DNA of 64,000 bases from Pseudarthrobacter sp. BIM B-2242 (lineage in GTDB: Bacteria > Actinomycetota > Actinomycetes > Actinomycetales > Micrococcaceae), in contig NZ_CP061721.1 in NCBI RefSeq assembly GCF_014764445.1, positions 3,782,001 to 3,846,000 of the forward strand, in the 5' to 3' direction. The translations under genes and the position numbers were made by a program. The notes beneath the pieces were generated by a model, which searched no databases, was not told where the DNA came from, and saw nothing but the letters and a program-made list of their open reading frames with translations. Below, piece by piece: positions 213 through 14,783 of this stretch (within the stretch, counting starts at the first letter, position 1; every line of letters begins with the position of its first letter).

Positions 213-1703
213 ATGAGACGCGCTAAGATTGTGGCCACTTTTGGCCCGGCAATTGCCAGCTTTGAGAACACGCTCGCGGTGTTGGAAGCCGGTGTGGATG
301 TGGCCCGGATGAACATGAGCCACGGTGACTACTCCGTACACGACAACACCTACGAGAACGTCCGCAAGGCTGCAGCCCAGCTGAGCAAGCCGGTGGCCAT
401 CATGGCTGACCTGCAGGGCCCGAAGATCCGTCTGGGCCGGTTTGTGGACGGCCCCCATGCCCTCGCCGTGGGCCACATCTTCACCATCACCACCGAGGAT
501 GTTCCGGGCACCAAGGAGGTCTGCTCCACCACGCTCAAGAGCCTCACCGAAGACGTCAACGTGGGTGATGCCCTGCTGATCGACGACGGCAAGGTGGCCC
601 TGCGCGCCATCGAGGTGGACAACGTCAAGGTCGTCGCCGAAGTGACGGTGGGCGGAATGGTGTCCAACAACAAGGGCATCAACCTTCCCGGCGTAGCCGT
701 CAACGTTCCCGCACTGAGCGAAAAGGACGAGGACGATCTCCGCTGGGCCATCCGCCGCGGCGTGGACATGGTTGCCCTGTCCTTCGTCCGCGACGCCACG
801 GACATCAAGCGCGTGCACGAGATCATGGATGAAGAAGGCCGCCGCGTGCCGGTGATCGCCAAGATCGAAAAGCCGCAGGCAGTTGACCAACTCTCTGAGA
901 TCATCGACGCGTTCGATGCCATCATGGTGGCCCGTGGCGACCTCGGCGTGGAACTTCCCCTCGAGGAAGTGCCGATCGTCCAGAAGCGCGCCATCGAGCT
1001 GGCACGCCGCTGGGCCAAACCGGTCATCGTGGCCACCCAGGTCCTCGAATCCATGGTCGACAACCCGCGCCCCACGCGCGCAGAAGCCTCTGACTGCGCC
1101 AATGCCGTGCTGGATGGTGCAGACGCAGTAATGCTGTCCGGCGAGACCAGCGTGGGCAAGTACCCGATCGAGACCGTCAAGGTCATGGCCCGGATCATCG
1201 AATCCACCGAGGTCCACGGCCTGGAGCGCGTTCCTCCGCTGGGTACCAAGCCCAAGACCCGTGGCGGCGCCATCACCCGTGCCGCCGTCGAGATCGCGGA
1301 CCAGCTGGACGCGAAGTACATCTGTGCTTTCACCCAGTCCGGCGATTCCGCCCGCCGCCTTTCCCGGCTGCGTCCCATCAGGCCGGTCTTCGCGTTCACC
1401 CCGGTGGAGCAGGTCTGGAACCAGCTGGCGCTGACCTGGGGGATCCAGCCGGTGCTGGTCCCCATGGTGGACCACACCGATGAGATGACCGCGCAGGTTG
1501 ACCGCAGCCTTCTAGAAATGGGCCTCGTGGACGACGGCGACCTGGTGGTCATTGCCGCCGGTTCGCCTCCCGGAAAGGCCGGTTCCACCAACTCACTGAA
1601 GGCCCACAAGGTGGGCGACCTCGCCGATACCGCCCGTTTGGGTGAAGCCGCCAGCAACAGAGAAAAGCTCGGCCCCTGGCCGGAAAAAATGAAACAAGCC
1701 TGA
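213..1703 (+). CDS. pyk: Pyruvate kinase
   Basis: Converts phosphoenolpyruvate and ADP to pyruvate and ATP, the last step of glycolysis, in the cytosol. The 496-residue length is normal for the bacterial enzyme. The N-terminal barrel starts RRAKIVATFGPA and has the substrate-loop NMSHG (about residue 35), the catalytic-lysine motif IAKIEKPQAVD (about 213-224, Lys near 217) and the metal-binding strand MVARGDLGVELP (from about 237), followed by the ATQVLESM helix. The C-terminal regulatory-type domain ends near residue 475. Start ATG 213 is preceded by AAAGGCAGG (201-209). It is monocistronic: a terminator lies upstream and a hairpin downstream. Glycolysis genes also lie at 58-61 kb of this window, so this may belong to the same metabolic theme. 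Confidence 0.97.
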   Translation: MRRAKIVATFGPAIASFENTLAVLEAGVDVARMNMSHGDYSVHDNTYENVRKAAAQLSKPVAIMADLQGPKIRLGRFVDGPHALAVGHIFTITTEDVPGTKEVCSTTLKSLTEDVNVGDALLIDDGKVALRAIEVDNVKVVAEVTVGGMVSNNKGINLPGVAVNVPALSEKDEDDLRWAIRRGVDMVALSFVRDATDIKRVHEIMDEEGRRVPVIAKIEKPQAVDQLSEIIDAFDAIMVARGDLGVELPLEEVPIVQKRAIELARRWAKPVIVATQVLESMVDNPRPTRAEASDCANAVLDGADAVMLSGETSVGKYPIETVKVMARIIESTEVHGLERVPPLGTKPKTRGGAITRAAVEIADQLDAKYICAFTQSGDSARRLSRLRPIRPVFAFTPVEQVWNQLALTWGIQPVLVPMVDHTDEMTAQVDRSLLEMGLVDDGDLVVIAAGSPPGKAGSTNSLKAHKVGDLADTARLGEAASNREKLGPWPEKMKQA

Positions 1704-2058: not shown

Positions 2059-2240
2059 CTAAACCGCGCGACAGGAGCCGCGAACTGCGCTTCCTCCAGC
2101 CGCGCGTAGGCCCCGCCCGCTGGCAGCAGCGGACACGCGTACCCGGCACCACGATCTGGCACCGAGGCGACCTCGACGCCCTCCAGCATTGTCCGTTTGC
2201 GTCGACCTCGTAGTTCACCAGCGTGGTTTGCCTACCCCGG
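2059..2240 (-). pseudogene. Decayed ABC-exporter ATPase remnant, copy 1
   Basis: The minus strand matches two separate pieces of the ABC exporter gene at 12723-14783. One piece matches the final 30-35 codons, including the C-terminal QFAAPV and a stop (CTA at 2059-2061). The other matches the Walker A lysine to the following strand, reading as GKxTLVN...YE...LEGVEVASV with frame breaks. About 420 bp between the two pieces are missing, as is the LMMRF stretch, and the reading frame is disrupted, so no ATPase can be made. It lies 117 bp from the small gene at 2358-2507. A second remnant of the same gene is at 6392-6695. Confidence 0.75.
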
Positions 2241-2357: not shown

Positions 2358-2507
2358 CTAGTGGTGAGTGCCGCGCCTGCTCCGGGGCAGGCAGGTGAAG
2401 AAGGAGGGCTGCTCAACCGGCGCGAGCGGGACCACAAGCCACTGGCCTCCGTAGAACTCCACGTACGAGTCGGAAGGGCAACCTGCATAGGCTTCTTCAC
2501 GTGTCAT
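2358..2507 (-). CDS. 49-residue conserved small protein, copy 1
   Basis: Unknown function. The frame starts at ATG 2507 and ends at TAG 2358. It begins MTREEAYAGCPSDSYVEFYG, continues GQWLVVPLAPVEQPSFFTCL and ends in a basic tail. A second copy is at 6226-6375: 40 of 49 residues are identical. Over the first 41 codons there are 23 synonymous differences against 3 replacements (G9R, E32Q, S35A), the mark of a protein under purifying selection. Two cysteines (10 and 39) are kept. The upstream sequence GGAAGGA about 10 nt before the start could serve as ribosome binding site, and AAxGAxTGATC precedes the start in both copies. There is no signal peptide or membrane helix. It is divergent from the GntR gene at 2671. 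Confidence 0.75.
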   Translation of the reverse strand: MTREEAYAGCPSDSYVEFYGGQWLVVPLAPVEQPSFFTCLPRSRRGTHH

Positions 2508-2575
2508 GCCGATCAATCCTTCCAAACCCCGGTTGATGGAGATGTCCTCATCTCCTCTTCTGCTACAAGTCTTAG

Positions 2576-2617
2576 ACCTTTAACGTTACATGTCAATAGA
2601 CATTTGATATTAAAGGT
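2576..2617. promoter_or_regulatory. Nested dyad operator upstream of the GntR-Cache regulator
   Basis: ACCTTTAA (2576-2583) mirrors TTAAAGGT (2610-2617), and inside it ATGTC-AATA-GACAT (2590-2603) forms a second, concentric-like dyad. The AT-rich block stands out from its GC-rich surroundings and lies 54 bp upstream of the regulator start and 69 bp upstream of the divergent small gene. By inference it is the autoregulatory site of the GntR protein at 2671. Confidence 0.5.
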
Positions 2618-2670
2618 TAGAGAATGGAGGTGGCGTAGCTGCGCACGCCTGACGAAGGAGCAACCCGTTC

Positions 2671-4110
2671 ATGAACACGTGGAGAGAGCAGCTCGCCTTC
2701 GCCCCCTTGGCCACCTTTGACCGGGGGGAAGAGGTGGGGAGGCGCCTCAGATACGCCATCGAGCTTGGCGTGCTTGAAGACGGGACCCAGCTGCCCAGCG
2801 AAAACGAACTGGCAGCCAAGATGGGCGTCTCCACACTGACTCTCCGAGCGGCGCTGGCCGACCTGCGCGGGCGCGGCCTGCTCGAGACGCGGCGGGGCAA
2901 GGGCGGCGGAAGCTTCGTCAAAGCCAGCACCGGCGACATCATCAAGGCCGAGCGCGAATCGGTCATGGCCTACTCCCTCGATGACCTGCGTGACATCCGC
3001 GACTACTGGGCCTTCCTGGCGGGCTCGGCAGCTGCCGCCGCAGCGGAGCGCAGCGGGCGGCTTTCCCTTGCGCGCCTGGCATCCATGGCCGGGAAGATCG
3101 AGTCGGCTGAGGATTCTGCGCAGGCCATTCGCGACGACAGCAGGTTCCACATCGAGCTTGCCGCCAGCTCAGGCTCCGTGCGGCTCACCCGCGAGGAAAT
3201 GGCGATGCAGGCCCAGGTGGGGCCACTGATCTGGGCTGCCCCCGCCGGGTACGGGAACGCGGCATCAGAACATGCCGCCATCGTCGAGGCGATCCGGTCC
3301 GGTGACGGGACACGTGCCCGCGCTCTGGCCGAAGATCACGTCCGTGCCGACATGAACCGGGTACTCGACCTGCGCATGAGCGTGGATGCATCCCGGAAAG
3401 ACGCCTTTACCGATCCTGCAAAGGAAAAACGCGAAGTCGCGCTGATCGAATCCTTCGTGGAGCTGCTGGCGGACACGGCCACAACCTCGATCCGTGCGAT
3501 TGAAGACGCGGTGCGCGTCCAGCTCGGCTCGAAGCGTGAGGCCGACAGCTCAGCCCTGGACGCTATCTACGGCGCTTCGCGACGCACGCTCGAAGGGGCC
3601 GTCCCACTGCTGTACGGGGCGGGCTTCCTCCCCGACACCGCATTCGGTCATGCGGGCGCGGCGTGGTGCCATGCCCCGGCAGGCCCGCAGTCACTTCAGC
3701 GGCTCGTCATCGACTGGGACTTATATGACATCGGAACCGTAGTGTGGCGCCCAGAGCACTACGGCGACGGAACCGTCCATATCAGCCATGCATACCTGGA
3801 CGCCAACGGGAGCAACGAAAACATCGTCACCTTCAGCAAAGCCGTTTTCGTGGACGACGAAATAGTCGGGATCGTCGCCGCAGATGTCCTGGTCCGGGGC
3901 ATCCAGAGCCATCTCGAACCCCACCTTCGGGCCTTGCCCCCGAACACGTGCCTCGTTGACCAGCAGGATGCGATCATCGCAACCAACACGGGCCGCTTTA
4001 TGGGAGGAACCTACTCACCCGGACACTATGCCGGGAAGCAGCTAGAACTCCACGCCATGCCGTGGCGGCTGTTTGTGGGCACCCCTGCCGCCGGCTCCGC
4101 CGGAGAATGA
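2671..4110 (+). CDS. GntR-family regulator (FadR/FCD-like) fused to a C-terminal Cache-like sensor domain
   Basis: A DNA-binding regulator of 479 residues, about twice the usual 230-250 of the FadR subfamily. The winged helix lies at about residues 20-85 (LPSENELAAKMGVSTLTLRA, then GRGLLETRRGKGGGSFV). Residues about 95-230 look like an FCD effector domain (SRFHIELAASSGSVRL, SEHAAIVEAIRSGD, a metal-type H in DHV). Residues about 245-470 resemble a PDC/Cache sensor: aromatic and acidic strands (WDLYDIGTVVWRPEHYGDG, VDDEIVGIVAADVLVRG, CLVDQQDAIIATNTGRFMGG). No transmembrane helix is visible, so the sensor would be cytoplasmic. AAGGAG lies 10 nt before ATG 2671. It converges on the GH15 gene, with 21 bp between stops. 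The effector is unknown. Confidence 0.8.
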   Translation: MNTWREQLAFAPLATFDRGEEVGRRLRYAIELGVLEDGTQLPSENELAAKMGVSTLTLRAALADLRGRGLLETRRGKGGGSFVKASTGDIIKAERESVMAYSLDDLRDIRDYWAFLAGSAAAAAAERSGRLSLARLASMAGKIESAEDSAQAIRDDSRFHIELAASSGSVRLTREEMAMQAQVGPLIWAAPAGYGNAASEHAAIVEAIRSGDGTRARALAEDHVRADMNRVLDLRMSVDASRKDAFTDPAKEKREVALIESFVELLADTATTSIRAIEDAVRVQLGSKREADSSALDAIYGASRRTLEGAVPLLYGAGFLPDTAFGHAGAAWCHAPAGPQSLQRLVIDWDLYDIGTVVWRPEHYGDGTVHISHAYLDANGSNENIVTFSKAVFVDDEIVGIVAADVLVRGIQSHLEPHLRALPPNTCLVDQQDAIIATNTGRFMGGTYSPGHYAGKQLELHAMPWRLFVGTPAAGSAGE

Positions 4111-4131
4111 GGAACGTCCGACGGCGGGACA

Positions 4132-5952
4132 TCAGTCGCGTGCGTCGACAGCCAAACTGAGGCGGTCAACGCCGTGCATCGCATCTGCCGCCCTGACCAG
4201 GGTCAGATGCGAGAAGGCCTGCGGAAAGTTGCCCGCCATCCGATCCTCGTCCGTGGCGTACTCCTCGCTCAGCAGACCCAGCTCGTTGGCGAACCCCACG
4301 AGTCTGTCCATCAGGACCTTTGCGTCGTCCTGCCGGCCTGTGCGCGCATACTGCTCCACAAGCCAGAAGGAGCAGGCGAGGAAAGGATGTTCACCCGGTG
4401 CCAGTCCGTCAACGCCCGTTTCCGTCCGGTAGCGCAGCAGCAGGCCGTCGTCGGTCAGGAGTTCCTCTTCCAGCCGTGCGACGGTGCCGAGCATGTGCTT
4501 GTCGTTGTAGGGCAGAAAGCCGACCTGGGGCATCACGAGCAGGGCCGCATCAGTCTGCGTTCCACCGTAGGTCTGTGTGAAGGAATTGATGTCCTGGTTG
4601 AAGCCCTCGCGCATGATCTCTTCCCGTAACCGGTCCCGGAGTTTCTCCCACTTGGTCGCATCGCCAGGCAGTCCGTGGATCTGGATGGCCCGGATCCCGC
4701 AGTTGAAGGCGGCCCACATCATCACGCGGGAATGGGTGAAGTACTGCGCGGTCCCGCGCATCTCCCACAGGCCGAAGTCCTTGTCATCGATGTGTTTCTC
4801 GACGAATCCCAGGAGTGCCTTCTGCAGGGCCCAGGAGAAATGGTCTTCCTTTCCGCCGGCCATACGAAGCCGTTCCAGTGCCACCATCACTTCGCCCACA
4901 ACATCAGCCTGGAACTGCGAGACGGCGGCATTTCCGATCCGCACAGGCTTGGAGTCTTCGTACCCGGGGAGGTGCGCCAGCTCGCGTTCGGGGAGTTCCC
5001 GTTCTCCCCCCACCCCGTACATGATCTGCATCTGCTCGGGATCGCCAGCGAGGGCACGAAGCAGCCAGTTCCGCCACTGCAGCGCCTCCGTCTCGTAGCC
5101 ATGGGTCAGCATCGATTCCAGCGTCAGCGCCGCATCGCGCAGCCAGCAGTACCGGTAGTCCCAGTTCCGCGGCCCGCCGAAATCCTCGGGGAGGGACGTG
5201 GTGGGCGCCGCGACGATGCCGCCCGTTTCAAAATGCGTCAGCGCCCGCAACACCAGGAGCGAACGCTTCACCGCACCCCCATAAACCCCGTCCTGCCGGC
5301 AGTGGCTACCCCAGCGGCTCCAATAGTCCGTGGCTTCCTCGAGGGCCGCATCAACGTCAGTGGCCGGCGGCAGGGGCCGGTGCGAGGGGAACCACGTCAG
5401 TTCGAAATCAAGCTGCTCGCCCTTCGAAACAAGGAACTCTCCCTCGTGTCCATGTGCGTGGGCGTGCGGAAGATGAGGCCCCCTCAGGGCGAGGGCATCC
5501 GGACCAGCCATCGCCAGCAGGACCGGCGCCGCCGTCGGCTCCTGGTCGCGTACCCGGCTCATCCAGGGCAGGACCGTTGAATATCCCGGCCGGATCCGCA
5601 GTTCCTGGCGCATTTCGACGCTGCCTTCAACACCGGTAATACGGCGGACAAGGGATGACCCGCTGTCGCCCAGCGGCATGAAGTCGGTGACCCGCACGGA
5701 TCCGCTGCCGGTCTTCCAGGTGGTTTGGAGGACAAAGGTCGAGTCGATATAGCGCCATTCCACAACTTCAGCGTCGGCTCCACTGGGGGCCAACAGCCAG
5801 CGGCCATGCTCCTCGGTGCCAAGGATCCGGCTAAACACCGACGGCGAGTCGAAGCGCGGGAAACACAGCCAGTCCACGCTGCCGTCCCGGGCGATAAGAG
5901 GCCCGGTTTGAAGGTCCGACAGCAACGCATAATCCTCGATGGGGGAAGCCAT
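4132..5952 (-). CDS. Glycoside hydrolase family 15 protein (trehalase/glucoamylase type)
   Basis: A 606-residue cytosolic enzyme of the GH15 group that, in actinobacteria, commonly hydrolyses trehalose or short alpha-glucans to glucose. The N-terminus (SPIEDYALLSDLQTGPLIA, then DGSVDWLCFPRFDSPSVF) and the catalytic-domain signature GGPRNWDYRYCWLRDAA are typical of this group, and the length is normal. There is no signal peptide. Upstream in-frame GTG at 5961 is possible, but ATG 5952 has the purine-rich GTGGGGAG just before it and is preferred. The gene is alone, convergent with the GntR-Cache gene. Trehalase against glucoamylase specificity cannot be settled by eye. Confidence 0.88.
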   Translation of the reverse strand: MASPIEDYALLSDLQTGPLIARDGSVDWLCFPRFDSPSVFSRILGTEEHGRWLLAPSGADAEVVEWRYIDSTFVLQTTWKTGSGSVRVTDFMPLGDSGSSLVRRITGVEGSVEMRQELRIRPGYSTVLPWMSRVRDQEPTAAPVLLAMAGPDALALRGPHLPHAHAHGHEGEFLVSKGEQLDFELTWFPSHRPLPPATDVDAALEEATDYWSRWGSHCRQDGVYGGAVKRSLLVLRALTHFETGGIVAAPTTSLPEDFGGPRNWDYRYCWLRDAALTLESMLTHGYETEALQWRNWLLRALAGDPEQMQIMYGVGGERELPERELAHLPGYEDSKPVRIGNAAVSQFQADVVGEVMVALERLRMAGGKEDHFSWALQKALLGFVEKHIDDKDFGLWEMRGTAQYFTHSRVMMWAAFNCGIRAIQIHGLPGDATKWEKLRDRLREEIMREGFNQDINSFTQTYGGTQTDAALLVMPQVGFLPYNDKHMLGTVARLEEELLTDDGLLLRYRTETGVDGLAPGEHPFLACSFWLVEQYARTGRQDDAKVLMDRLVGFANELGLLSEEYATDEDRMAGNFPQAFSHLTLVRAADAMHGVDRLSLAVDARD

Positions 5953-6074
5953 GCTCCCCACTCAACCACAATTTTTTCACCCGGGTTAGGCCCGTTTTCG
6001 GCCCGCCCTGACCGGCCCGGAACCGTTCCACCGGCCGCTTCCACGTCAGGGATGGTGGGGCCCGATCGCGCTAC

Positions 6075-6144
6075 CTACCTAAAGGGGTGGTTAGAACCAT
6101 CCAGAAATAGCGTTTCGCCTACCTGCCGATGACGGGACCATGGA
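6075..6144 (+). promoter_or_regulatory. 70-bp conserved upstream element, copy B
   Basis: Aligns without gaps to 58030-58099 upstream of gap, with 55 of 70 positions identical. The left part holds a 7-4-7 dyad (CCTACCT-AAAG-GGGTGGT at 6074-6091), followed by AACCATCCAGAAATAGCGTT and, at the right, GGACCATGGA. It ends 81 bp before the small gene at 6226 and points the same way relative to it as copy A does to gap. It is probably a promoter with an operator. Confidence 0.6.
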
Positions 6145-6225
6145 TAACAAGCCCACCTCCGGCGAAAGAGGAAAAAGCAGTTCCCATCCCAGCGACGCAT
6201 GACCTAGCGAGAAAGACTGATCACC

Positions 6226-6375
6226 ATGACACGAGAAGAAGCCTACGCACGGTGCCCCTCGGATTCGTATGTGGAATTTTATGGCGGCCAATGGCTCGTC
6301 GTTCCGCTTGCACCCGTCCAGCAGCCCGCCTTCTTTACGTGTCTTCCGGGCGAACGCCGCAGCGCCCGCCGTTGA
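6226..6375 (+). CDS. 49-residue conserved small protein, copy 2
   Basis: Paralogue of the small protein at 2358-2507, in the opposite orientation. It starts MTREEAYARCPSDSYVEFYG and continues GQWLVVPLAPVQQPAFFTCL, ending in GERRSARR. GAGAAAG lies about 9 nt before ATG 6226. The conserved core (residues 1-41) keeps every aromatic residue and both cysteines (10, 39) despite 23 silent codon changes, so it is expressed and constrained or was until recently. The tail after residue 41 is basic and variable. It sits downstream of the 70-bp element and ends 16 bp before the second decayed ABC remnant. Function unknown; its compact, Trp/Tyr/Phe-rich sequence suggests a small beta fold or a binding peptide. 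Confidence 0.75.
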   Translation: MTREEAYARCPSDSYVEFYGGQWLVVPLAPVQQPAFFTCLPGERRSARR

Positions 6376-6391: not shown

Positions 6392-6695
6392 CTAAACTTC
6401 CGCCGCAGGGGCCGCGAACTGCGCCTCGCAAAAGCCCGCATATGGCCTGCCCGCAGGTAGGACCGAAGCTGCGTCCCCTGCTCCGCGATCTGGCCAGCCT
6501 TCATCACCAGGATGAGGTCGGCGTCGCGGATCGTGGACAATCACATAGGAAGTCCGGAGGCTCTCCCCCGCTGACACGTTCGTGTCCTCGTCCTCCAGCA
6601 CCGTCTCCGCCGGCTCCGCCACGAGACAAAGAGAGATCTTGTCAGGCGAATTCAACAGACTCCTCGTCCTCATCCAGCAGCGATAACACCTACAC
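6392..6695 (-). pseudogene. Decayed ABC-exporter ATPase remnant, copy 2
   Basis: Read on the minus strand, short pieces follow the ABC exporter at 12723-14783 in order: VLSLLDEDEESVE (linker), SPDKISLCLVAEP, ETVLEDEDTNVSAGE (signature region), [25 protein letters not shown] and EAQFAAPAAEV at the end, with a stop at 6392. Walker A, the Q-loop, Walker B and about 40 residues after the signature have been lost in at least three deletions, and frame changes occur. It cannot encode a working ATPase. It differs from copy 1 in which pieces survive, so the two decayed independently or from different parents. Confidence 0.8.
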
Positions 6696-12722: not shown

Positions 12723-14783
12723 CTAGATCTCCGCCACGGGAGCCGCGAACTGCGCCTCGTACAGCCGTGCGTATGCCCCGCCGGCGGCCAGCAGTGAAGC
12801 GTGCGTTCCCTGCTCCACGATCTGGCCAGCCTCCATCACCAGGATGAGGTCGGCGTCGCGGATCGTGGACAGGCGGTGGGCGATGACAAAGCTCGTCCGG
12901 TCGCTCCTCAAAGCCCGCATCGCCTTCTGCACCAGCACCTCAGTCCGGGTATCCACGGAGGACGTCGCCTCATCCAAAATCAAAACCGACGGCCGGGCCA
13001 GAAACGCCCGTGCAATCGTCAGCAGCTGCTTCTCCCCCGCGGAGACGTTGGAGCCCTCGTCCTCCAGCACCGTGTCGTACCCCTCCGGCAGCGACCGCAC
13101 GAACCGGTCCACATACGTGGCCCGCGCCGCCTCCAGAATTTCGGATTCAGTAGCACCAGGCCGCCCGTACGCGATGTTGTTCCGGATGGTCCCGCCGAAC
13201 AGCCACGTATCCTGCAGCACCATCCCCAGCCGCGAGCGCAGCTCCCGCCGCGGCACCGAGGTGACATCCACGCCGTCGAGCGTTATATGCCCCTCATCCA
13301 GCTCGTAGAACCGCATCATCAGGTTCACCAAAGTCGTCTTGCCCGCCCCGGTCGGGCCCACAATCGCCACCGTCTGCCCCGGCTCCGCCACAAGAGACAA
13401 CGATGAAATCAACGGCTTGTCCGGCGAATACGAGAACGAGACGTCCGAGAACACCAGCCGCCCACGCCCAAACACCGGACCAGAAGAGGGAGGAGGCTCA
13501 GCAGACTCCTCCTCCTCATCCAACAACGAGAACACCCGCTCGGCGCTCGCCACCCCGGACTGCAGCAGGTTCGCCATGGACCCCAGCTGCGCCAACGGCA
13601 TGGTGAACTGGCGCGAGTACTGGATGAACGCCTGCACGTCGCCCAGCTGCATGGCCCCGGACGCCACCTGCAGGCCGCCCACCACCGCGATCCCTACGTA
13701 CACCAGGTTCCCGATGAACGTCATGGCCGGCATGATCAGCCCTGAAATGAACTGCGCGCCGAAGCTCGCCTCGTACAGCTCCACGTTCTTCTGCCGGAAC
13801 CGCTCCTCCACCTCGCGCTGCCGGCCGAACACCTTCACCAGCGCATGCCCGGTGTACGTCTCCTCGATCTGCCCGTTCAGCTCACCCGTGTTCTTCCACT
13901 GCGCCACAAACAGCTTCTGCGAGCGCTTGGCGATCAGCGCCGTCACCCCCAGCGTCAGCGGCACGGTCACCAACGCGATCAGTGCCAGCGTGGGCGAAAG
14001 GATCACCATCATCACCAGCACACCCACCACCGTCAGCACCGACGTGACCGCCTGGCTGATGGACTGCTGCAGGCTCTGCGAGACGTTGTCCACATCGTTC
14101 GTGACCCGGCTCAGCAGCTCGCCGCGCTGGATCGAATCGAAATACCGCAGCGGCAGCCGGTGGATCTTCGCCTCGATCTCCTCCCTCAGCCCGAACACCG
14201 TCCGCTGCACCACCCCGTTGAGCACATACGCCTGCACCCACATAAACGCGGACGCCAGCACGTACAGCACCAGCGCCCACAGCAGCACGCTGGACAGCGC
14301 CGCGAAGTCGATCCCGTCCCCCGGCGTCAGCGCCATGGGCGTGAGCATGTCCGCCTTCTGGTTCTCCCCCGCGGCCCGCAGCTGCGCGATCAACTCCGCC
14401 TTGCCCACCCCGGCGGGCAGCTCCCGCGACACCACCCCGGCGAAGATCAGGTTGGTGCCCTCCCCGAGCAGCCGCGGTCCGATCACCGAGAGCGCCACGC
14501 TGGCAATGCCCGTCACCAGCACCAGCAGCAGCCACGCCCGCTCCGGCCGCAGGGTGCCCAGCAGCCGTTTGGCCGACGGCCAGAAATTCATCGCCTTCTC
14601 CGCCGGGATATTCATCCCGCCGAACGGTCCGCCCTGTCCCGGTCCGCGCGCGGGGCGCGGAATGCGTACGACGTCGGCAGCTCCCGTTTTCGAGGCAGGT
14701 GCGGTTCCGCCGGGGGCGGCGGTGTTGGATCCGGCTGCGTGCGCGGAAGCAGCGCCCGACGGTGGCCGGTTCTGCGTGCTCAT
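12723..14783 (-). CDS. ABC exporter, fused membrane-ATPase subunit with consensus Walker B (heterodimer partner 2)
   Basis: A 686-residue ABC exporter half-transporter with a Gly/Ala/Pro-rich N-terminal extension of about 65 residues, six helices to about residue 390, and a nucleotide-binding domain. Walker A is [10 protein letters not shown], the Q-loop VLQDTWLF, Walker [11 protein letters not shown] with the catalytic glutamate, and the H-loop [13 protein letters not shown]. Its signature motif is degenerate ([14 protein letters not shown] in place of LSGGQ). The partner gene overlaps by 4 bp and has the opposite pattern, so together they should make one working and one degenerate ATP site, as in the TM287/288 and BmrCD type of drug or lipid exporter. 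Two decayed pieces of a related gene lie at 2059-2240 and 6392-6695. Confidence 0.92.

Follow-up and report, generated by a model that had tools for sequence, protein, structure and literature searches.

A duplicated small protein of Pseudarthrobacter co-occurs with one GH15 hydrolase subfamily and is carried by Arthrobacter phages

What is the role of a 49-residue protein that one actinobacterial chromosome encodes twice, on either side of a hydrolase gene? The question is posed by a stretch of 64,000 nucleotides from Pseudarthrobacter sp. BIM B-2242 (Micrococcaceae; contig NZ_CP061721.1, positions 3,782,001 to 3,846,000 of the forward strand), hereafter the window, in which copies A and B of a small gene enclose both a gene for a glycoside hydrolase of family 15 (GH15) and a gene for a GntR-type regulator. 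We find that the small gene belongs to a multi-copy family that is under purifying selection and is also carried by phages, and that the strongest clue to its role is a single GH15 subfamily with which it co-occurs. The chances appear to us about even that its product is a cytoplasmic accessory protein, a trans-acting modulator of that subfamily, with extra copies placed under other control and with phages able to reach the same enzyme. Three features carry the argument:

2358..2507, minus strand: copy A of the 49-residue protein (P0001), frame present and homologues found
6226..6375, plus strand: copy B of the 49-residue protein (P0002), frame present and homologues found
4132..5961, minus strand: GH15 hydrolase of 609 residues, the proposed partner, its 5' end facing copy B at 265 bp (Pfam, co-occurrence and adjacency)

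The first-pass annotation of this DNA had placed the two short frames at these positions, with products identical at 40 of 49 residues, and both statements were borne out (the translations being compared by eye). A script returned the same counts that the annotation had given for codons 1-41, namely 23 synonymous codon differences and 3 amino acid changes, which correspond to proportions of synonymous (pS) and nonsynonymous (pN) differences of 0.81 and 0.032, respectively; over residues 42-49, two are identical by eye. To judge the family as a whole, we used 89 occurrences from fetched neighbourhoods and the window. The start motif served to anchor 87 of them; the two others, at loci L086 and L087, are broken. 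The common part of the family is a core, followed in 86 copies by tails of 3 to 23 residues. Among these 86 homologous cores, which have a mean pairwise amino acid identity of 0.76, the coding frame contains no stop (0/86) and is the only one of the six that is free of them, each of the other five holding stops in 29 to 86 of the 86 sequences. Mean heterozygosity at the three codon positions is 0.17, 0.13 and 0.49, the pooled pS and pN are 0.70 and 0.14, and the median ratio of nonsynonymous to synonymous rates (dN/dS) is 0.13 for the pairs whose pS falls between 0.05 and 0.6 (682 of 3655). Thus, the annotation's view that random or decayed DNA would not show such a pattern, and that the short protein is duplicated and under purifying selection, is upheld: it had named randomly placed stops or a dN/dS near 1 in homologues as evidence to the contrary, and what we find is 86 of 87 anchored copies stop-free in the core and a dN/dS of about 0.13. 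C10 is kept in all 86 bacterial cores and C39 in 83, and R3, A6, C10, D13, Y15, V16, E17, Y19, W23 and Q33 are identical throughout. An RNA element was considered in place of a protein and rejected, as a scan of the window against Rfam gave no match and the changes fall in third codon positions.

The family matches no described domain: the two proteins had no match at E<=1 in Pfam or PHROGs, and none at E<=0.1 in NCBIfam or PADLOC. A search of 5.8 billion proteins yielded 58 clusters, with 58 of 58 candidates matching and none carrying a Pfam domain, and 253 matches with E<=10 came from a profile search, the best 120 being listed. Six longer proteins matched the small-protein domain, including one of 201 residues that looks like a start called too far upstream. 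The AlphaFold2 model (mean predicted local distance difference test score, pLDDT, 83.9; predicted template modelling score 0.51) consists of a helix at residues 3-8 and a hairpin of 14-19 and 22-27, with pLDDT block means above 90 over the first 30 residues; no solved relative was found by sequence or by fold. Judged by eye, the protein has neither a signal nor a membrane segment. The family did not turn up in a literature search by title, abstract start and text within an open-licence library, and the available passages of PMC5513430 and PMC8171050 do not mention it. The frames had also been described as likely to be missing from annotations, which holds for a plasmid match with no feature listed at that place but not in general, since some sources list members as 'hypothetical protein' and many phage records annotate the gene. 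Likewise, the two-copy duplication is real but too narrow a description of a dispersed, phage-carried family that is linked to GH15 and GntR genes.

In the genus of the window, the small gene is present in 48 of 198 genomes, with one to nine dispersed copies each. In wider samples, it is sparser: 7 of 295 genomes matched in a sample of the family, in 5 of 32 genera and with three of the seven belonging to the window's genus, followed by 4 of 396 in a sample of the order and 2 of 394 in one of the class. The sole match outside the family in the latter two samples (G742, E 5e-4) was read as chance after translation. The named genomes among 32 loci from a GTDB scan are Arthrobacter, Pseudarthrobacter, one 'Micrococcaceae bacterium' and one bin labelled Cryobacterium. 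We note that the last is a metagenome bin whose 84% identical match lies on a 3.6 kb contig (L121) and which is possibly misbinned. Of 72,556 plasmid records, one contains the small gene. In Arthrobacter globiformis, an apparent decayed remnant of a second, inverted small gene follows the one at 12830 of locus L073; its counterpart in genome G140 (L047) is intact.

The hydrolase between the two copies is a clear GH15 protein by Pfam (1.6e-76; 258.4 bits against a cut-off of 22), with an additional TREH_N domain (1e-18). The trehalase equivalog models, which are archaeal, score below their cut-offs (380 versus 820 for TreH1, and 329 versus 1000), and a phmmer search of solved structures gave nothing at E<=0.01. 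Every full-length GH15 frame of the loci, the split frame of L085 aside, contains WEMR or WEVR together with EHPFLACSFW, the glutamates of which we take to be the two catalytic glutamates of GH15. Across the genus, GH15 genes at E<=1e-220 occupy 59 places in 48 genomes. Association with the small gene depends on identity to the window's enzyme: a small gene lies within 1 kb of 37 of the 49 places at >=70% and at 1003 and 1081 bp from two others, compared with 0 of the 10 at 62-69%. The 49 include a few partial genes, and the GH15 genes of G092 and G153 contain a stop. In 20 genomes, none of 64 GH15 places at <=65% identity had a small gene within 3 kb of its lower coordinate. In other genera, a GH15 gene of 74-87% identity lies within 0.33 kb in three of the four genomes that have the small gene.

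Thirty-five of the 37 near GH15 genes have the small gene on their 5' side, 22 divergently and 13 on the same strand, and one group has the frame 69-81 bp before GH15 on the same strand, as would be expected of a cis-acting leader peptide for the next gene. That role is nevertheless very improbable, given the 22 of 37 divergent arrangements, the call of a same-strand gene within 1.5 kb downstream in only 14 of 44 representative loci (calls for neighbouring genes were made by script and are rough), and conservation that spans the whole core and not one site. From the side of the small gene, a GH15 gene lies within 1 kb of 38 of 89 places, the figure to be held against the constant adjacent toxin gene by which toxin-antitoxin pairs are recognized.

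Presence of the two genes is tightly coupled. In the 198 genomes of the genus, the small gene occurs in 48, a GH15 gene of >=70% identity in 43 and both in 41 (Fisher p 1.2e-32); leaving out G092 and G153, whose only such GH15 holds a stop, gives 39 of 41 (p 4e-30). An accessory gene chosen as a control for co-occurrence was present in only 3 of 198 genomes and was uninformative. On a marker tree of pyruvate kinase from 30 genomes picked by label (16 with and 14 without the small gene), presence is scattered, with 9 changes for each gene against shuffled-label means of 10.3 and 10.4, and the close pairs G106/G012, G166/G023 and G073/G021 differ in both genes at once; G105, G158 and G102 have one gene only. 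As far as one marker and a chosen sample allow, the scattered presence and these pairs speak against an explanation by clade structure. As a side observation, the genome of the window itself has two pyruvate kinase genes (window 213-1703 and C1:1778120-1779598), with proteins 94% identical.

The state of the copies follows the same division. Counting a core as intact when it has no stop and keeps C39, 80 of 81 small-gene copies are intact where a GH15 of >=70% was found and 2 of 7 where it was not (p 3e-6, the copies being not fully independent), or 78 of 79 and 4 of 9 when G092 and G153 are counted as lacking a sound GH15 (p 2e-5). The sole broken copy alongside such a GH15 is a 45% match with a stop in G025, and the copies where none was found are intact in G102 and G158 and broken in G002, G032, G081, G084 and G122. 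The broken small gene of G122 has a decayed GH15 at a distance of about 2 kb, and G341 combines a GH15 containing a stop with a small gene whose end is altered. This pattern of decay likewise points away from shared ancestry alone. Furthermore, G140 combines a single such GH15 with nine small genes, not one of which lies within 170 kb of GH15 on that contig, and we count these unlinked copies in favour of action in trans.

Could the two genes merely travel together, as accessory passengers of common insertion hot spots or islands with no functional link? Both are patchy, and the window locus also holds repeats that we read as decayed genes of the ATP-binding cassette (ABC) type:

2067..2160, minus strand: repeat beyond copy A, read as the decayed 3' end of an ABC-exporter gene
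6401..6494, minus strand: repeat beyond copy B, read as the decayed 3' end of an ABC-exporter gene

The two form a direct repeat of 71% identity on the outer side of both small genes and, judging from relatives L039 and L040, in which two full ABC frames adjoin copy B, are apparently remnants of ABC-exporter 3' ends. Yet adjacency is kept in two orientations, and small genes away from GH15 remain intact in the presence of GH15 and are broken more often in its absence, so that mere hitchhiking seems unlikely.

A functional link does not require contact, however. The small protein might act elsewhere in GH15 physiology, with, say, a transporter or a regulator for alpha-glucan or trehalose utilization as its target, and the same co-occurrence data would fit. 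Transporters and metabolic genes are among the 20 neighbours of other copies, and a rough clustering of neighbours within 5 kb of the 89 loci places a mixed ABC-ATPase cluster, F1, at 17 of them, beside GH15 at 18, GntR at 12 and a major facilitator superfamily transporter at 11. Against this, an indirect link needs another partner that co-occurs equally well, and none was found among those tested genus-wide, which were GH15, the GntR gene and the one uninformative control; no fixed neighbour family stood out among the 20 neighbours scanned, a candidate that we dropped. We therefore consider an indirect link possible, at a fairly low probability, and return to modulation of the GH15 enzyme itself after describing how the copies may be controlled.

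For copy A, the following features are candidates for such control:

2671..4110, plus strand: GntR-FCD regulator with a PDC-type C-terminal domain, divergent from copy A (Pfam domains and the neighbourhood of homologues)
2576..2617, no strand: imperfect dyad between copy A and the regulator, a likely operator (alignment of 9 loci and genome scan)
2569..2596, minus strand: likely sigma70-type promoter of copy A (TTGACA, 16 bp, TAAGAC) inside the dyad, proposed by eye from sequence and alignment

The regulator matches GntR (1.4e-15), FCD (1.7e-12) and PDC (1.8e-6), each above the cut-off, and has homologues at E<=1e-60 in 16 of 198 genomes. Twelve of the 16 have a small gene on their 5' side, divergent and within 0.75 kb, nine of them at a spacing of about 120-165 bp and the other three, G032, G102 and G166, at about 700-740 bp; the small gene beside the regulator of G032 is truncated. 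No small gene was found beside the homologue in G127, G145 and G146, and in G138 the contig ends within the regulator. The intergenic regions of the nine closely spaced pairs can be aligned over a dyad centred on GTCTATTGAC, whose half pattern, at <=3 mismatches, occurs only here in the 4.78 Mb genome, with one match per strand and none for a reversed control. The natural reading is one dedicated regulator with a single putative operator for copy A, which it probably represses. The winged helix with FCD, the divergent gene and the palindromic site are all as in GntR/FCD regulators of the LldR, NanR and PdhR type; unlike them, the window protein has an extra PDC-type domain and, apparently, a single predicted operator in the genome. 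In some genomes, an unnamed open reading frame, F71 (127 and 147 codons as called; L094:6551-6934 and L183:995-1438), lies between the GntR gene and the small gene, and in G146 (L181), an F71-like start lies at a dyad of this kind, with no small gene present.

Upstream regions of other small genes carry varied palindromes across loci, including what we take to be LacI-type boxes (TTAGCGCTAACA and relatives) in the interval that separates the small gene from a divergent GH15 at L050, L069, L070 and L089, and, presumably, a CsoR-like palindrome, ATACCCCTAGGGGGTA, upstream of 7869 at L083, before a small gene with an altered end. We do not claim a general placement of operators upstream of small genes, as the representatives of 44 groups did not stand out from 81 control genes: the best inverted repeat scored 6.88 and 6.44, respectively (p 0.37), the excess over shuffles had p 0.09, and scores >=10 were reached by 6 of 44 representatives and 3 of 81 controls.

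The small gene is also carried by viruses. A tblastn search found it in 25 of 50,697 phage records, corresponding to 17 distinct phages, all isolated on A. globiformis. We do not claim host restriction, as at least 83 of 103 Arthrobacter phage records with an NrdH relative come from A. globiformis as well and no fair denominator is available. Gene surroundings were inspected in 16 of the 17 phages, Snek being left out. In nine (Shoya, Maja, Anekin, Persistence, Richie, BrayBeast, Bauer, Zucker and EvePickles), the gene stands in a rightward block, some genes after repressor-like and other helix-turn-helix genes, and in the other seven among replication, recombination or unknown genes, as in Jinkies, where it lies between an exonuclease gene and RecT, and in Tweety19 and VResidence, where it follows a SprT-like protease. 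This position suggests early expression. In 11 of 16 phages, the ends of the small gene overlap or touch both neighbours, which speaks against a promoter of its own. The annotated start lies further upstream in Maja, and in Shoya gp48 (L150:5989-6474) the small protein is fused in frame to about 110 further residues of phage protein.

Some unrelated phages match over little more than the small gene, which indicates gene exchange: in megablast comparisons of 3-kb stretches, TripleJ shares 166 bp with Peas (87%), 152 bp with Richie (93%) and about 155 bp with Shoya (88%). The match is longer in other pairs, for instance 441 bp between Anekin and BrayBeast and 408 bp between Anekin and Bauer. In a short nucleotide tree that included 15 of the phages, the phage copies group, with modest support, with one copy each from G341 and G025, and stand apart from the copies of A. 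globiformis itself. Within Bridgettevirus, the gene is present in Peas and GlobiWarming and absent from four aligned relatives, Judy, Constance, Bridgette and PeggyLeg03. Phage morons are extra genes inserted between genes that adjoin in relatives, and the gene of Peas and GlobiWarming resembles one in that its immediate downstream neighbour has a different gene directly ahead of it in Judy, Constance and Bridgette. It differs from a moron in that the preceding gene also varies among these Bridgettevirus phages, in the overlap with both neighbours in most phages, and in being a multi-copy gene of the host as well.

The early or replication gene blocks of the 16 phages inspected, together with the regulator and single operator-like dyad of copy A, would suit a protein of phage takeover or growth inhibition that was captured by bacteria and is kept in check by tight repressors. 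That idea does not predict as many as nine copies in a genome, almost all of them intact, nor decay in the absence of GH15, and the excess of upstream palindromes is not significant, which makes such an origin quite unlikely.

We favour modulation of the GH15 enzyme instead. Tight yet scattered co-presence, a position in the GH15 promoter region in both orientations, more frequent decay without GH15 and several unlinked copies per GH15 together point to action in trans on the enzyme or its fate. One small gene would usually reside in the promoter region of GH15 and its product would act in trans on the trehalase- or glucoamylase-like hydrolase; further copies under other control, for example that of the GntR-FCD-PDC regulator, may feed several signals into the one enzyme. 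Phages of A. globiformis with the same gene among early or replication genes could thereby reach the same enzyme of the host and gain, as a conjecture, from the release of stored sugar. We lean slightly towards activation or targeting of GH15 over inhibition, because two genomes keep GH15 without the small gene, which a toxic free enzyme would hardly allow. The fullest form of the proposal, in which a gene was copied under many sensors so that signals converge in trans on a storage-sugar hydrolase, with at least 17 phages having picked up the same key, is more doubtful than probable.

Several observations weigh against modulation of GH15. No GH15 gene lies within 1 kb of 51 of the 89 small-gene places, and in the rough neighbour clustering the mixed ABC-ATPase cluster is nearly as widespread as GH15 (17 and 18 of 89 loci). 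The two genes are not always found together: G105 and G186 have a GH15 of >=70% without the small gene, G102 and G158 an intact small gene without such a GH15, and G153 and G092 intact small genes although their only GH15 of this kind is partial and holds a stop. In G359, the small gene is altered after residue 37 beside a GH15 of 85%, and in G420 it is broken beside one of 71%. The marker tree rests on one gene and on genomes chosen by label, the predicted model of the small protein matched no solved fold, and no GH15 gene is annotated in the phage stretches inspected around the small gene.

Through this analysis, an overlooked frame of 49 codons becomes part of a testable relation between two genes, one for a small protein and one for a GH15 enzyme. 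If the proposal is true, it would mean that a trehalase-like enzyme of soil actinobacteria is controlled at the protein level, that duplication of a tiny gene is a way of connecting several sensors to one enzyme, and that a number of A. globiformis phages carry a metabolic lever. A group of phage genes at present annotated as hypothetical would then also gain a role.

Two known systems help to place such an arrangement. Each of the Ira anti-adaptors of Escherichia coli answers its own stress, and the Ira proteins are mutually unrelated. IraP, IraM and IraD act on RssB, according to PMC4428439. If our reading is right, the likeness lies in several small proteins under different signals that converge on one target protein; the Ira target is a proteolysis adaptor, whereas the copies described here are homologous to one another and also phage-borne, their proposed target is a hydrolase, and the small protein is not a member of the Ira group.

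The second system is MSMEG_4535, a trehalase of Mycobacterium smegmatis that belongs to GH15, as does the window gene 4132-5961 with its TREH_N domain; unlike a trehalase by the archaeal model TreH1, the window enzyme stays below the cut-off (380 against 820). The available passages of PMC5371599 mention no small partner protein for the mycobacterial enzyme. They do describe it as latent in dormant cells and becoming active without new synthesis, which provides a precedent for protein-level control of such an enzyme.

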